From NCBI GenBank assembly GCA_039679385.1, contig JBDKVB010000051.1:1-47983 (forward strand): a stretch of 47,983 nt of DNA, in the 5' to 3' direction. The notes below the pieces were generated by a model, which was not told the DNA's origin, ran no database searches, and saw only the letters and a list, made by a program, of their open reading frames with translations. This stretch comes from Armatimonadia bacterium (lineage in GTDB: Bacteria > Armatimonadota > Zipacnadia > Zipacnadales > JABUFB01). Every line of letters starts with the position of its first letter. The first letter of the stretch is position 1. Position numbers and translations under genes: made by a program. Below, piece after piece: positions 12,340 through 17,186 of this stretch.

Positions 12340-13275
12340 ATGATACGCTCCATGGGGAGCTTGAGGCTGACCGGAGCCCTGCTTACGCTGGTGGCGCTCA
12401 CCGGCAGCTTGGGCCTTGCTAGCGCGCAGGACATCAGTGCGGCCGTTGAGCGCGTCGACCCGGCGGTGGTGACCCTCAAGGCGGAGGATCGGGAAGGCGC
12501 AGGTTTCGTCGTGAATGAGGCGGGGAACCTGGTCACCAATGCGCACGTGGTCGGTGGCGCCCGCGAGGTGGACGTTCGCTTCACCGACGGGAAGGTCCAG
12601 AAGGCCCAGGTTGTCGCCAGCGACGACAAGAAGGACCTGGCCGTCCTGAAACTGGCGGAGAACGCGAAGGCCTATGCCGAACTGGGAGCCACGGCGAACC
12701 TCAAGCCGGGTGCCGAGGTAGCTGCCCTGGGCGCGCCGCTGGGCCTGGAGAACTCCGTCACCAAGGGTGTTATCAGCTCGAAACCGCGGCGGATCGACGG
12801 CAACGACTACCTGCAGATTGACGCGGCGCTGAATCCGGGCAACTCCGGTGGCCCTGTGATTGACGGTCGTGGCGCCGTGGTCGGGGTTAGCACCATCGTG
12901 GCCCGACGTGCGGAGAACGTCGGCTTTGCGGTTCCGTCGGACGTTCTGGCCGCTTTTCTGGACCAGCACAAGATTGCGTATCACGTGATCTCCGGCGATA
13001 CGCTGCAGGCACCGGCACCCGCACCGGCACCCGCTGCACCGACTCAGGGCACTCCGTCCTCTCCTACACCCTTTGGGGAGGAGGCGCCGACGAACCTGCT
13101 GCTGGTGATCACGGTGGCTGCCGGGGTCGCCATCCTGTGCTCGGTCGTCACGAGCCTGCTTGTCCTGCGCCTGACGCTGCACAGGGCCACGCAACGCCTG
13201 GCAGCGAACACGCCCTTGTCGATCAACCCGCCGGTGCAGGAGGACTTGTCCGACGTCGATATCACGCTTCACTGA
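12340..13275 (+). CDS. Membrane-anchored trypsin-like (HtrA/DegS-type) serine protease heading the Ubl operon
   Basis: A 311-residue protein. Residues 1-29 form a signal peptide (ALLTLVALTGSLGLASA). The protease domain has an intact triad: His69 in TNAHVVGG, Asp99 in DDKKDLAVLKL, Ser169 in NPGNSGGPVI. No PDZ domain follows; instead there is a Pro/Ala-rich linker (222-245), a transmembrane segment at about 252-277 and a 34-residue tail ending EDLSDVDITLH. With the signal peptide cleaved, the protease faces outside and the tail inside. The start at 12340 has GAGGGG upstream. It lies 20 bases before the Ubl gene and shares its promoter. The tail peptide DLSDVDI recurs in the soluble JAMM protein of the same operon. 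A longer reading from 12295 would begin upstream of the likely transcription start. Confidence 0.88.
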   Translation: MIRSMGSLRLTGALLTLVALTGSLGLASAQDISAAVERVDPAVVTLKAEDREGAGFVVNEAGNLVTNAHVVGGAREVDVRFTDGKVQKAQVVASDDKKDLAVLKLAENAKAYAELGATANLKPGAEVAALGAPLGLENSVTKGVISSKPRRIDGNDYLQIDAALNPGNSGGPVIDGRGAVVGVSTIVARRAENVGFAVPSDVLAAFLDQHKIAYHVISGDTLQAPAPAPAPAAPTQGTPSSPTPFGEEAPTNLLLVITVAAGVAILCSVVTSLLVLRLTLHRATQRLAANTPLSINPPVQEDLSDVDITLH

Positions 13276-13295
13276 TCTGGGGAGGCCCGAGAATC

Positions 13296-13565
13296 GTGGG
13301 CAAAGTCAGCGTAACTGTCATGGATACCACCGGCAACAAGGAGCAGCAGGCCAGCCTGCCCGACGATGCGCCGGTGCGTCGCATCATCGCCAAGCTGGTG
13401 CAGATGATGAGCCTGCCGACGGTCGGCCCCGACGGCCAGCCGATGAGCTACAAGTTCCACCACAAGGCCTCCGGCAAGCAGCTCTCCGACGAGCAGACCC
13501 TCTCCGAGGCCGGTGTTCAGGACGGCGACGTCCTGCGCCTGCAGCCTGAGATCACGGCCGGCTAG
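13296..13565 (+). CDS. Ubiquitin-like beta-grasp protein
   Basis: An 89-residue protein starting at GTG 13296, with GGGGAGG ten bases upstream. The pattern of strand (KVSVTVMDTTG), strand, helix (DDAPVRRIIAKLVQMM), strands and a final DGDVLRLQPE strand is the ubiquitin/YukD beta-grasp order, including the SGKQLSDEQTLSEAGVQDGD segment that parallels the LIFAGKQLEDGRTLSDYNI region of ubiquitin. The chain ends ITAG with a single exposed Gly and nothing after it, so no removal of a tail is needed before activation. Position directly before an E1 and in one operon with an E2 and two JAMM proteases supports the role of the conjugated modifier. The start is not open to much doubt, since the frame upstream is inside the protease gene. 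Confidence 0.88.
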   Translation: MGKVSVTVMDTTGNKEQQASLPDDAPVRRIIAKLVQMMSLPTVGPDGQPMSYKFHHKASGKQLSDEQTLSEAGVQDGDVLRLQPEITAG

Positions 13566-13623
13566 GCCGGCGCCCTCTCTGAGCACCACTTTGGCGACCC
13601 GGCCGGCGTCCATCGGGAGCATC

Positions 13624-14826
13624 ATGGCTCAGGAACCCGCATCGCAATCGGAAGTGCTCGACGTCACGCTGGAGGAGGACCGCTATTCGCGCCTCCGCCT
13701 GATTCCGTGGTGGAGTCAGGAACGCCTGGCAGCGGCCCGAGTCCTGGTCGTGGGCGCCGGTGCGCTGGGCAACGAGATCTGCAAGAATCTCGCGCTGCTC
13801 GGCGTGGGTCGCGTCATGGTCATCGACCTGGACAGCATCGAGGACACCAACCTGACCCGCAGCGTCCTGTTTCGGCACCGCGATCAGGGGCGACCGAAGG
13901 CTGAGGTCGTGGCGGAAGCCATGCGGGACCTCAACCCGGACGTGCGAGTGGAACCCGTGGTCGGCAATGTGCTGCACGATCTGGGCGCCGGCGTGTTCGG
14001 CGAGATGGACCTTGTTTTGGGCGCCCTGGACAACCGCGAGGCACGGGTACACATCAATGCCACCTGCTGGAGACTGGGCAAGCCCTGGATTGACGGGGCC
14101 ATTGAAGTCGTGCAGGGCGTTGCTCGGATGTTCGTGCCACCCGAGGGTCCGTGCTATGAGTGCACCATGTCGGCCCTCGACTACCGGCTGATGTCGATGC
14201 GGCGCTCCTGCGCACTGCTGACCCGGGAGGAAGTGCTGCAAGGGAAGATCCCGACGACCCCGACGACGGCCTCGGTGATCGCAGGGATTCAGGTGCAGGA
14301 GGCCATCAAGTGGCTGCACCGGGACCGTGGCCTGCCACTGCTGGCCGGTAAGGGGTTCGTCTTCAACGGCCTGACCCATGACTCTTATGTCGTCGAGTAC
14401 CAGCGCCGCGAGGACTGCCCGGCTCATGACGAGGTCGGCGAGATTGTGCCGCTGGACCTGCGGGCCTCGACGGTGACCCTCGGCGAGATGCTGGAGCACG
14501 TGCGGGAGCAGGTCTCCCCGCAGGCGATTCTGGAGTTCGACCGCGAGATCTGCACCGCCTTCGTCTGCCACCACTGCAACAGCCGGGAGCCGGTGTTCGC
14601 GCTACTGGGCACACTCACGGCCGGCGATGCCGTCTGCCCCGAATGTGGCGAGGCACGGGAGCCGGAGATGACGCACGCGGTCTGCGGGACCGAGCCCTAC
14701 CTGGACCGGACGCTTGCGCAGATGGGTATCCCGCCCTACGATCTTGTGAGAGGTCGCGAGGGCATGAAGGCACGGCACTTCCTGCTTGCCGGAGACCGGC
14801 AAGAGACTCTCGGCGTACTGGCCTGA
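13624..14826 (+). CDS. E1-like Ubl-activating enzyme (ThiF/MoeB fold) with C-terminal zinc ribbon
   Basis: A 400-residue adenylating enzyme that would activate the Ubl C-terminus with ATP and pass it to the E2. The Rossmann loop VGAGALGNE (43-51), the DLDSIEDTNLTR segment with Asn76 and Arg79, Lys92 and LGALDNREAR (Asp136) are the ATP-site signature of E1/ThiF enzymes. Cys177 and Cys180 (GPCYEC) form a Cys pair, and Cys196 (RRSCALLTREE) is in the position of the thioester Cys. From about 278 on there is a separate domain with further pairs (CHHC 315-318, CPEC 338-341) and a final segment MGIPPYDLVRGREG that may be the E2-binding part. GGGAG precedes the ATG. Residues 10-17 (EVLDVTLE) are one of the acidic beta-like peptides found in several operon members. 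Confidence 0.92.
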   Translation: MAQEPASQSEVLDVTLEEDRYSRLRLIPWWSQERLAAARVLVVGAGALGNEICKNLALLGVGRVMVIDLDSIEDTNLTRSVLFRHRDQGRPKAEVVAEAMRDLNPDVRVEPVVGNVLHDLGAGVFGEMDLVLGALDNREARVHINATCWRLGKPWIDGAIEVVQGVARMFVPPEGPCYECTMSALDYRLMSMRRSCALLTREEVLQGKIPTTPTTASVIAGIQVQEAIKWLHRDRGLPLLAGKGFVFNGLTHDSYVVEYQRREDCPAHDEVGEIVPLDLRASTVTLGEMLEHVREQVSPQAILEFDREICTAFVCHHCNSREPVFALLGTLTAGDAVCPECGEAREPEMTHAVCGTEPYLDRTLAQMGIPPYDLVRGREGMKARHFLLAGDRQETLGVLA

Positions 14827-14838
14827 ACGGCAACCAAC

Positions 14839-15852
14839 ATGAACGAGCCCAGCGACGAGCTTGAGGTTGAGATCACCGGCAGCGCAGCGGGGACACGAAC
14901 CGCGGCGACGCCGGTCGTGTTTGTGACCGACCAGGCCCTGCGCGAGATGCGGGCCCATGCGGCCGAGGACACCAGCAAGGAGCGTGCAGGGATCCTCGTT
15001 GGATCGGCGGCAGCCTCCTCCGAAGGCACGCTGGTGTCCGTCGAGGCGATGATTCCGGCGCTGCACACCGAGGCACATCGCGGCAGCGTGACCTTCACGC
15101 ACGAGACCTGGACGCAGATCAACGCCTGCAAGGACCGCGACTACCCGGACCTGCGCATCGTCGGCTGGTACCACACGCACCCGGGGTTCGGGCTGTTTCT
15201 GTCTGACTACGACAAGTTCATCCACACCAACTTCTTCAGTCTGCCCTGGCAGGTGGCGCTGGTTGTCGACCCGCGGGCAGAGGAGTCCGGGGTCTTCGTC
15301 TGGCGCAACGGGCAACTGGCCGGTCCGCTCGATCCGCGGCTTGTGGCCCAGACGGGTGCGGAGATGCCTATGCCTACCATGCCCCAGATAGCCGCCGCAC
15401 CGACGCCGACCCCGCGCGGTGCTTCGCGAGTGTGGCAATGGTGTGTGTCGGCGCTGCTCGTGGTGGTGCTGGGGCTGCAAGGCTTCCAGTTGTACTCGTC
15501 GCGGATCAAGCCGCCGGAGCCTACGGCGGTGGTAGCCAGTGCGCCGGCACCAGTGCACACCGAGTCACCTGAGCTAGCGGCGGAGGTCAGGGCACTCAAG
15601 GAGCAGGTCGCCTCGCTGCAGACTGAGGTGACCCGTGGGAAGCCCGCACCTGCCGGCGAAGCGGAGCAGAAGTACACGGTGCAGCGTGGGGATAGTCTGT
15701 GGCGGATTGCGCGGCGTGTCTACGGGGATGGGAACCTGTGGGGAGCCATCGCGCTGGCGAACGGTCTCAAGGGGAACGACCTCGAGCCCGGCATGGTGCT
15801 GAAGATCCCGAAGCCACAGGTGCCAAAGGGTGAAGCCCCGGATGCCGGATGA
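14839..15852 (+). CDS. JAMM (MPN+) deconjugase with transmembrane segment, coiled coil and LysM domain
   Basis: A 337-residue protein. The N-terminal JAB/MPN domain (about 25-165) has the full zinc-protease signature: Glu48, His112, His114, Ser122 and Asp125 (HTHPGFGLFLSDYD, i.e. HxH-x7-S-x2-D). A Pro-rich linker leads to one transmembrane segment (199-217, VWQWCVSALLVVVLGLQGF), then a helical region able to form a coiled coil (243-263) and a LysM domain (279-324, YTVQRGDSLWRIARRVYGDG). There is no signal peptide, so the JAMM domain should be cytosolic and the LysM outside, where it can bind peptidoglycan. The fusion ties isopeptidase activity to the cell wall. The gene starts 12 bases after the E1 and overlaps the next gene by 11 bases. 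Residues 7-12 (ELEVEI) are again an acidic strand-like peptide. Confidence 0.9.
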   Translation: MNEPSDELEVEITGSAAGTRTAATPVVFVTDQALREMRAHAAEDTSKERAGILVGSAAASSEGTLVSVEAMIPALHTEAHRGSVTFTHETWTQINACKDRDYPDLRIVGWYHTHPGFGLFLSDYDKFIHTNFFSLPWQVALVVDPRAEESGVFVWRNGQLAGPLDPRLVAQTGAEMPMPTMPQIAAAPTPTPRGASRVWQWCVSALLVVVLGLQGFQLYSSRIKPPEPTAVVASAPAPVHTESPELAAEVRALKEQVASLQTEVTRGKPAPAGEAEQKYTVQRGDSLWRIARRVYGDGNLWGAIALANGLKGNDLEPGMVLKIPKPQVPKGEAPDAG

Positions 15853-16558
15853 GGAACCGGGCAAGGAAGAGGCAGAGGAGCCGGACGACCTCTCGGATGT
15901 GGAGATCGAGACGCCGGGGGTGTGGGAAGAGCGCCTGACGGAGGCGCTCACGCCCTCAGAAGACCCGGGGATGGTCGTCGCCGCCTGTGGCCACCCGCAA
16001 GGTGAGCCACGGGTCTACCTGCACGCCGAGGTGCTGAGCCGGATTCTCGAGCATACCCGTGGAGAGACCTCGCGCGAAGTTGGCGGGGTATTGCTGGGCA
16101 GCTTCTACCTGAGCCACGACCGGCGTGTAACCGATGTGCGTGGCGCCGTTCGGGCTCCCCTGACTCGGGCCGGGCAGGCGCATGTGACCTTCTCGCATGA
16201 TACCTGGGCCGCAATCTTCCAGTCGGTCGACCCGGAGCCGGGCCGATCGATCGTCGGGTGGTACCATAGCCATCCGAACTTCGGCATCTTCCTGAGCCGC
16301 CAGGATGTCTTCATCCAGGAGAACTTCTTCGACAGCCAGGGACACATCGCGCTGGTGATCGACCCGCTCCGGCATCAGGCCGGAGTCTTCAGGTGGGAGG
16401 AAGGGCGGGTCTGCCCCGCCCCGGGGTTTTGGATCAGCGAAGAGGAAGGCAAGGAGGAGAAGGCGCGACGGCTCGCCAAGATGCTCTCGTACCGTACGAG
16501 TCGCAACGCCACGCCCGGATTCCTGCAGCGGATGCTGGGTCGGTTTCGACGCCGCTGA
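15842..16558 (+). CDS. Second JAMM (MPN+) deconjugase, soluble
   Basis: A 238-residue protein without membrane segments. After an acidic, probably disordered start (residues 1-45) comes a JAB/MPN domain with Glu79, His142, His144, Ser152 and Asp155 (HSHPNFGIFLSRQD), so the zinc site is complete. The tail is basic (MLGRFRRR). Residues 16-22 read DLSDVEI, nearly identical to the cytosolic tail of the operon's protease, though the codons differ. It is related to the preceding JAMM (both have GWYH-S/T-HP, FGxFLS and a following NFF), so the two probably arose by an old duplication. ATG 15842 overlaps the previous stop and has AAAGGG eleven bases upstream; a GTG at 15830 is the alternative. Likely role: removal of the Ubl from targets. 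Confidence 0.9.
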   Translation: MPDEEPGKEEAEEPDDLSDVEIETPGVWEERLTEALTPSEDPGMVVAACGHPQGEPRVYLHAEVLSRILEHTRGETSREVGGVLLGSFYLSHDRRVTDVRGAVRAPLTRAGQAHVTFSHDTWAAIFQSVDPEPGRSIVGWYHSHPNFGIFLSRQDVFIQENFFDSQGHIALVIDPLRHQAGVFRWEEGRVCPAPGFWISEEEGKEEKARRLAKMLSYRTSRNATPGFLQRMLGRFRRR

Positions 16559-16634
16559 AGATGCACCCAAGGCGGGGCCTCGCGGCTCTTTCGGGTGCCA
16601 ATCACAACCAAAGACTAGTAGGTAGACCCCCACC

Positions 16635-17186
16635 ATGAACGCTCGACTACGCCGGCTTTACGCCGACTCCCAGAAGATCCAGGATGAGTTCACAGGCCAC
16701 CCGCACATCGAGGTGGTGCCGCTTCTGGGAGACCCGCCGGAAGCCTACCAAATCACGTACCATGTCACGGGGCTGCGGCTGGACCGGGCAACCAACCGGC
16801 CCGTGCGGATTCGTGAGCATCGGGCACGGATCCACCTGCACCAGAACTACCCGCGCGAGAAGCCGAAGTGCGTGATGGACACGGACATCTTCCATCCGAA
16901 CATTGGTCCCTACATCTGCATCGACGACTACTGGGCTGCGGGCGAGAGCATTGCGGATGTGATCATTCAGATCGGTGAGATGATCCAGTACCGGAACTAC
17001 AACACCAAGAGTCCCCTGAACGCCGTGGCCGCACGATGGGCTGAGCAGAACCGCCACCTGCTCCCGGTAGGGGACGTGGACCTGTACCAGCCGGAGATAG
17101 AGATTGATCTGCTGGGCACGCCGACTGACAAGCAGGGACCGCGAGGTCACAGTGAGGGTGATCAGGTGGACATTCAGTTGAAGTAG
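16635..17186 (+). CDS. E2-like Ubl-conjugating enzyme (UBC fold)
   Basis: A 183-residue protein with the classical E2 core: an N-terminal helix (RLRRLYADSQKIQDEF), YPREKP (72-77) matching the YPFKPP turn, HPNIG (87-91) and the catalytic Cys95 in YICIDDYW, followed by the helix SIADVIIQIGEMI and SPLNAVAARW, equivalent to the DPLN-AA segment of eukaryotic E2s. A C-terminal extension (about 145-183) contains PEIEIDLL and ends DQVDIQLK, both acidic strand-like peptides. It would accept the Ubl from the E1 as a thioester and transfer it to lysine. No E3 is encoded nearby, so it may pick targets itself. A 76-base gap with a GCACCC/GGGTGC hairpin separates it from the JAMM gene. It appears to end the operon. 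Confidence 0.92.
   Translation: MNARLRRLYADSQKIQDEFTGHPHIEVVPLLGDPPEAYQITYHVTGLRLDRATNRPVRIREHRARIHLHQNYPREKPKCVMDTDIFHPNIGPYICIDDYWAAGESIADVIIQIGEMIQYRNYNTKSPLNAVAARWAEQNRHLLPVGDVDLYQPEIEIDLLGTPTDKQGPRGHSEGDQVDIQLK

Follow-up and report, generated by a model that had tools for sequence, protein, structure and literature searches.

The operon and its terminal peptides

The stretch of DNA analysed here (the window; 47,983 nucleotides, the first 47,983 positions of contig JBDKVB010000051.1 of an Armatimonadia bacterium, assembly GCA_039679385.1) carries a six-gene operon encoding a membrane protease, a ubiquitin-like protein (Ubl), an E1 and an E2 enzyme and two JAMM peptidases (Table 1). Every one of these proteins except the Ubl bears, near one of its termini, a short acidic peptide of the type [DE]-h-[DE]-I-x-h, where h is a hydrophobic residue. 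The peptides had originally been predicted to resemble SUMO-interacting motifs (SIMs), which bind a Ubl by adding a strand to its sheet. They prove to be real and better supported than that prediction claimed, with the decisive evidence coming from their conservation in related genomes.

Table 1. Coordinates of the operon, its genes and their peptides in the window, and of a further motif carrier encoded elsewhere.
Feature	Position	Strand	Basis or remark
Operon	12340-17186	+	six genes: protease, Ubl, E1, JAMM1, JAMM2, E2
HtrA/trypsin-like serine protease	12340..13275	+	Pfam Trypsin_2, 110 bits; hydropathy
Protease C-terminal peptide DLSDVDITLH, reaching the C-terminus	13243..13272	+	sequence; orthologue conservation
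YukD/EccD-type Ubl, ending ITAG, without a peptide copy	13296..13565	+	Pfam YukD, 62 bits; beta-grasp model and structural matches
E1, ThiF-type adenylating enzyme	13624..14826	+	Pfam ThiF, 190 bits
E1 N-terminal peptide EVLDVTLE (residues 10-17), just ahead of the ThiF domain	13651..13674	+	sequence; tail-matrix score
JAMM1: JAMM domain, transmembrane helix (residues 195-213), LysM domain	14839..15852	+	Pfam Prok-JAB/JAB and LysM
JAMM1 N-terminal peptide ELEVEI (residues 7-12)	14857..14874	+	sequence; tail-matrix score
JAMM2, soluble JAMM peptidase related to RPN11	15842..16558	+	Pfam JAB, 48 bits; RPN11 match from residue 47
JAMM2 N-terminal peptide DLSDVEI (DLSDV in the original prediction; DLSDVEIE)	15887..15907	+	sequence; tail-matrix score 16.7
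E2, UBC fold	16635..17186	+	Pfam UQ_con; UBC match ends near residue 143
E2 first tail peptide PEIEIDLL (residues 153-160), directly after the UBC domain	17091..17114	+	QP[ED]h[DE]h kept in most of 29 orthologues
E2 C-terminal peptide DQVDIQLK (residues 176-183), at the exact C-terminus	17160..17183	+	sequence; orthologue conservation
LapA-like membrane protein, N-terminal DDDLDLELEL	L079:14374-14862	-	orthologues L208-L239

The peptides quoted for the E1, JAMM1 and the E2 were all located at the residues originally given, and DLSDV is found in the protease C-terminus (EDLSDVDITLH*) as well as in JAMM2 (DLSDVEIE). Five of the six proteins had been credited with a candidate peptide, and all five non-Ubl proteins do have one, but the JAMM2 copy (V-E-I-E-T) departs by one residue from the strict hydrophobic-acidic-hydrophobic-x-hydrophobic spacing (h-[DE]-h-x-h) given in the original prediction. 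Burial of the peptides inside folded domains had been named as a possible objection; instead, the domain matches begin after or stop before them, the ThiF match starting at residue 25 of the E1, the JAMM matches at residue 28 of JAMM1 and at 47-57 of JAMM2, and the UBC match of the E2 ending at about residue 143. Hydropathy suggests that the protease comprises an N-terminal signal anchor, a periplasmic protease domain, a transmembrane helix (residues 248-281) and a short cytosolic tail, which ends EDLSDVDITLH*; its score against the NCBIfam degP_htrA model lies under the cutoff.

Background frequencies were taken from 598 other proteins called from open reading frames of the same genome (the window and 60 further stretches, together 0.8 Mb out of 5.6 Mb). 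Counted over 25 residues at each end, the strict pattern is found at the C-terminus in 4.2% of these proteins, at the N-terminus in 4.3% and at one end or the other in 8.5%. It is present in four of the five operon proteins (binomial p = 2.5e-4, for sites that were chosen after the fact), and the frequency in this sample of the genome is thus not near that of the operon. A degenerate DNA pattern for the motif was also searched, but returned 84 sites against 36 in a reversed control and was dropped as too unspecific.

Conservation and spread of the motif

A search for homologues of the E2 gave matches in 49 of 291 genomes from the phylum and at 14 sites in genome contigs, and their neighbourhoods were compared. 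As regular expressions requiring several acids within a narrow window missed obvious copies, a scoring matrix and a C-anchored pattern, [DE][ILVM][DEGQ]I[DETQK][LFI]x-COOH, were used instead. All 17 readable protease tails and all 30 main-E2 tails of the Armatimonadota relatives match this tight pattern, while none of the 598 background C-termini do; both pattern and matrix were fixed after the relatives' tails had been seen, so these fractions describe how uniform the tails are and do not constitute a test. Elsewhere the pattern has a density of about 9e-6 per residue. The window's own E2 copy, GDQVDIQLK, is one residue off it (Q at position -7). In an alignment of 29 E2 sequences, the linker that joins the peptide to the UBC domain is free in both length and sequence, and a single Ile (column I180) is invariant.

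The independent test consisted of applying the matrix, trained solely on the relatives' protease and E2 tails, to the N-termini of unrelated proteins, namely the E1, the JAMMs and an FHA membrane protein. Among the 598 background N-termini, six score at least as high as the E1 copy (placing it in the top 1%), three as high as that of JAMM1 and none as high as that of JAMM2. For two proteins on another contig of the same genome (C138), a third JAMM (JAMM3, DDDLSIEL) and the FHA protein (GELEIEL), the corresponding numbers are zero and one. Fisher combination over these five proteins, all of them kept out of matrix training, gives p = 2e-8, although the three JAMMs are paralogous and the values therefore not fully independent.

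The same matrix places 43 of 64 JAMM N-termini and 9 of 22 E1 N-termini of the relatives above the 99th percentile of the background, but none of 21 Ubls. Copies in the relatives' E1s include ILDIDLEEDRY and PIDVDLHEDRY. In three loci (L073, L074 and L075) the E1 copy beside DRYSR has decayed and a new one stands at the extreme N-terminus (DDLDIEL, DDLGIEL and DDLHIEL); a copy that is relocated yet retained is behaving as is typical of a short linear motif. Conserved, anchored, relocatable, in practice confined to this system and carried by unrelated folds but not by the Ubl, the shared peptides are strongly supported as functional parts of the Ubl system.

Additional carriers are encoded downstream of the E2 in relatives, where a Prok-RING membrane protein (PF14446), another JAMM, an FHA membrane protein and TPR membrane proteins were found. 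Copies there read GGDVLDIELED in the RING linker, DEEVLDISL or DDEIDINL in the FHA protein and DVLDVEIE in the TPR proteins. An acidic segment of related form, [IV][LI][DE][IV], occurs in nearly every FHA orthologue whose N-terminus could be read, with matrix scores that vary. In the genome of the window itself, a Prok-RING membrane protein, JAMM3 and the FHA protein form an unlinked second cluster on contig C138 (L146:6239-9018), in which JAMM3 and the FHA protein have the peptide, and contig C157 holds a series of short Prok-RING membrane proteins (L147:9037-13976, minus strand).

The FHA protein, the E2 and the Ubl occur in families f1, f2, f3 and f6 of the order. In the 12 genomes of families f4 and f5 no E2 and no FHA protein were found, nor a Ubl except for one marginal match (E = 1e-3). 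A LapA-like membrane protein is present in 35 of 41 genomes, and its N-terminus reads DDDLDLDLD or DDFDIEL in many of those with the system, but has no such copy in any of the eight f4 genomes. Its motif score is higher in the 24 system-bearing than in the 8 system-less genomes (Mann-Whitney p = 1e-4). The LapA-like, FHA and TPR proteins that carry the motif elsewhere in these genomes are candidates for further members, or for readers, of a pathway that is otherwise unknown.

A different signature marks the operons of family f18 (L048-L055), whose termini were read by eye. All eight E2 tails seen there contain W-x-[DE] (for example GWVEL, FWMES, EWVDE, EWLDI, VWIDE and LWKDL), and all four JAMM N-termini contain W-x-E (EWQE, HWQE, EWEE and DWEE); the Ubl of this family is more diverged and ends HG. 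Since the signature shifts jointly in two unrelated proteins, E2 and JAMM, a common partner behind the change is suggested. The LIR/AIM peptides (LC3-interacting regions or Atg8-interacting motifs) that bind Atg8 are likewise acidic-hydrophobic, and they extend the sheet of their Ubl-fold partner by a strand. The W-x-[DE] variant resembles them in part, whereas the clade of the window has no conserved W/F/Y-x-x-L core.

The ubiquitin-like protein as candidate partner

The Ubl is a single domain of 89 residues with no signal or transmembrane segment, and is the sole operon component without the peptide. It is the most conserved of the members, with identities to relatives of mostly 72-89% (61% in the two most distant), compared with about 60-70% for the E1 and E2 of near relatives. 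For the membrane proteins, hydropathy places the peptide-bearing ends on the cytosolic side. The Ubl does not belong to the SUMO family: its best Pfam family model is YukD (PF08817; 62.1 bits, cutoff 27), and the ubiquitin and Rad60-SLD models score under their cutoffs. Foldseek searches with the Ubl model returned archaeal ubiquitin, NEDD8 and SUMO chains among the matches, and VIA-align matched it to EccD5, ISG15 and ubiquitin, with the Ubl of EccD5 among the top matches. Helix 1 of the Ubl has a pair of arginines, R28 and R29, of which R29 is at least 90% conserved. Aligned by hand, the pair would correspond to K45 and K46 of SUMO, and K46 is a key basic prong of the groove that receives SIMs (PMC12751080).

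Structural modelling of peptide docking to the Ubl gave mixed evidence. At a few loci the protease stop is followed by the Ubl in frame, and an artificial read-through construct of protease tail and Ubl was modelled on that basis, with no claim that read-through occurs naturally. In the AlphaFold model of this fusion, the peptide block (residues 11-20) has a mean predicted local distance difference test score (pLDDT) of 75, against 50 and 54 in its flanks, and forms a two-residue beta bridge at residues 18-19.

Taken together, these observations point to a membrane-associated system of Ubl conjugation and deconjugation with a shared docking motif whose putative partner is the Ubl, a reading to which we assign a probability of roughly 0.6. 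The motif [DE]-h-[DE]-I-x-h, with its variant [VI]-L-D-[IV]-x-L, would act as a short linear docking motif on flexible termini. Its acidic beta peptide may add a strand at the edge of the Ubl sheet, beside the basic helix, as a SIM does on SUMO. The E1, the E2, the JAMM peptidases, the RING protein and the membrane adaptors could in this way hold the Ubl, or targets modified with it, through one common low-affinity contact that would leave the catalytic face of the Ubl free, as is reported for SUMO (PMC12687455). The protease tail, JAMM1 (with its LysM domain outside) and the RING, FHA and LapA-like members would tether the assembly to the inner membrane. Of the SIM-like binding originally predicted, then, the shared functional peptides, absent from the Ubl, are borne out; the Ubl as their partner, the strand addition and the recruitment role are plausible, and the SIM reading is the best explanation of the data though unproven, with the canonical core present in some copies only.

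Several observations weigh against docking to the Ubl as just described. The model of the protease tail with the Ubl is that of an artificial fusion, of moderate confidence, and in a second AlphaFold construct, in which the Ubl was followed by the E1 N-terminal peptide, the peptide was disordered (pLDDT 46-50). The matrix scan detected no motif in the upstream E2 paralogue found in some families or in the RING protein of this genome. The contrast in the LapA-like protein depends on a single motif-less clade (f4), so that ancestry may account for part of it, and the protein is without the motif in several genomes that have the system. Finally, the protease, E2 and JAMM copies alternate as h-x-h-x-h, unlike the canonical SIM core.

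Some of these points would also fit a partner other than the Ubl, such as a surface of the E1 or E2, the RING protein or an unlinked hub, in which case the peptide would mark membership of one complex. The negative result with the E1 peptide and the presence of the motif on the unlinked LapA-like protein favour such a partner, but the E1, the main E2, the JAMMs and the FHA protein all carry the motif themselves, leaving the Ubl as the one shared component without it; we regard this alternative as unlikely, with perhaps one chance in five or so of being right. It is improbable that the segments instead stack on each other in a homotypic, RHIM-like fashion and co-assemble the system without the Ubl. 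The alternating hydrophobic residues and the distribution of the peptide over almost all members would suit stacking, but the conserved acids, which recur at alternate positions, would push stacked strands apart, and the E2 and protease copies stop one residue short of the C-terminus, which would better suit a groove. A role as processing or turnover signals, either C-terminal degrons or adaptor tags, is slightly less probable again: it would agree with the position of the protease and E2 copies at exact C-termini, but not with copies that are N-terminal in the E1, JAMM and FHA proteins and internal in the RING proteins. Chance, to which the frequent acidic beta-like patterns of disordered termini and the 8.5% background of the strict pattern might be held to point, has next to no likelihood left, the uniform tails and the combined p-value of the held-out proteins having already refuted it.

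Docking to the Ubl can be extended to a bacterial docking code, in which one Ubl is read non-covalently, through a single peptide, by the E1, E2, RING, JAMMs, transmembrane protease and envelope adaptors. Such a code would be a prokaryotic counterpart of SUMO and SIMs, possibly evolved independently, with a W-x-[DE] dialect in a sister clade that has another Ubl; we consider the odds on this extension about even. The data suggest a bacterial version of the SIM, used for assembling enzymes around a modifier. If so, peptide-based reading of a Ubl would occur outside the eukaryotes as well, in almost every component of one bacterial conjugation pathway.

Related systems and variation among loci

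In the literature, recognition of the SIM type is regarded as a SUMO hallmark and as not found in the ubiquitin realm (PMC12687455). Its core is psi-x-psi-psi or psi-psi-x-psi (PMC12751080), and the SIMs of SAE2 and the SENPs lie in flexible extensions (PMC12687455). The operon peptides have in common with the SIMs of the E1 subunit SAE2, SENP proteases and SUMO E3s a short hydrophobic core flanked by acids, which sits in a flexible extension of a protein that conjugates or deconjugates one Ubl or serves as its E3 (PMC12687455, PMC12751080). In almost every copy, acids ([DE]) both precede the core and occur inside it, and the peptides lie outside domain matches and on variable linkers, with low pLDDT for the E1 copy. 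The canonical core spacing fits VLDV of the E1 and [VI]LD[IV] of the FHA, RING and TPR proteins. On binding in the groove between beta2 and alpha1, where SIMs add their strand, the two AlphaFold fusions point in different directions, one giving the peptide intermediate confidence and the other leaving it disordered. In contrast to SIMs, the operon copies occur on almost every protein, including the protease, E2, FHA and membrane proteins, are mostly strictly alternating and, in the protease and E2, C-terminally anchored, while the modifier is a bacterial YukD-type Ubl. The strict label of SIM was not adopted for the peptides, as the core spacing deviates in most copies and the putative partner is of the YukD type.

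Operons that combine a Ubl or substrate with an E1, an E2 and a JAMM are also known from Bil (BilABCD) and from type II CBASS (cyclic-oligonucleotide-based antiphage signalling systems). The E1 of the window matches two PADLOC models, E1-E2 and BilD, and JAMM2 gives a weak match to BilC. Unlike either, the present system has a YukD-type Ubl with a single domain, an E1 and an E2 that are separate proteins, two or three JAMMs, and membrane protease, LysM, RING and FHA partners. Identity with Bil was ruled out, given the two Ubl domains of BilA against one here and the lack of a PADLOC match for the Ubl or the E2. Pfam searches of the six operon proteins, which did not extend to the wider neighbourhood, found no CD-NTase of the kind expected for type II CBASS. 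A 2011 paper on prokaryotic RING proteins from the Aravind group reportedly describes the same set of components (E1, E2, JAB, Ubl and Prok-RING). That set also appears in the prokaryotic RING/JAB/E2/YukD-like neighbourhoods described by the same group in Iyer 2006 (PMC1779556), in the searched passages of which no shared terminal peptide was found. Within the limited set of literature searched, we found no description of a common peptide in such a Ubl system.

The related loci vary in several other respects. The Ubl precursors run beyond ITAG in L033, L035, L039, L045, L046 and L078, with the extensions RWL, RGIAP, RVVV, GCFCVC, ESFRVC and RAIG among them. Ends of this kind would need a processing step, and perhaps a JAMM acts as the processor of the extended precursors. 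The operon is interrupted in L031, L036, L043 and L060 by genes inserted between those for the Ubl and E1 or the E1 and JAMM1; the insertions encode a NucS-like protein, an ion channel, an AAA protein with DUF4276 and one protein without any of the families searched. A second E2 paralogue, without the terminal peptide, lies upstream beside the protease gene in L064, L065, L068, L070, L072, L073-L075 and L078. In L073, a stop splits the E1 frame in two, with the ThiF domain on one side and the C-terminal part on the other (L073:5209-6478).

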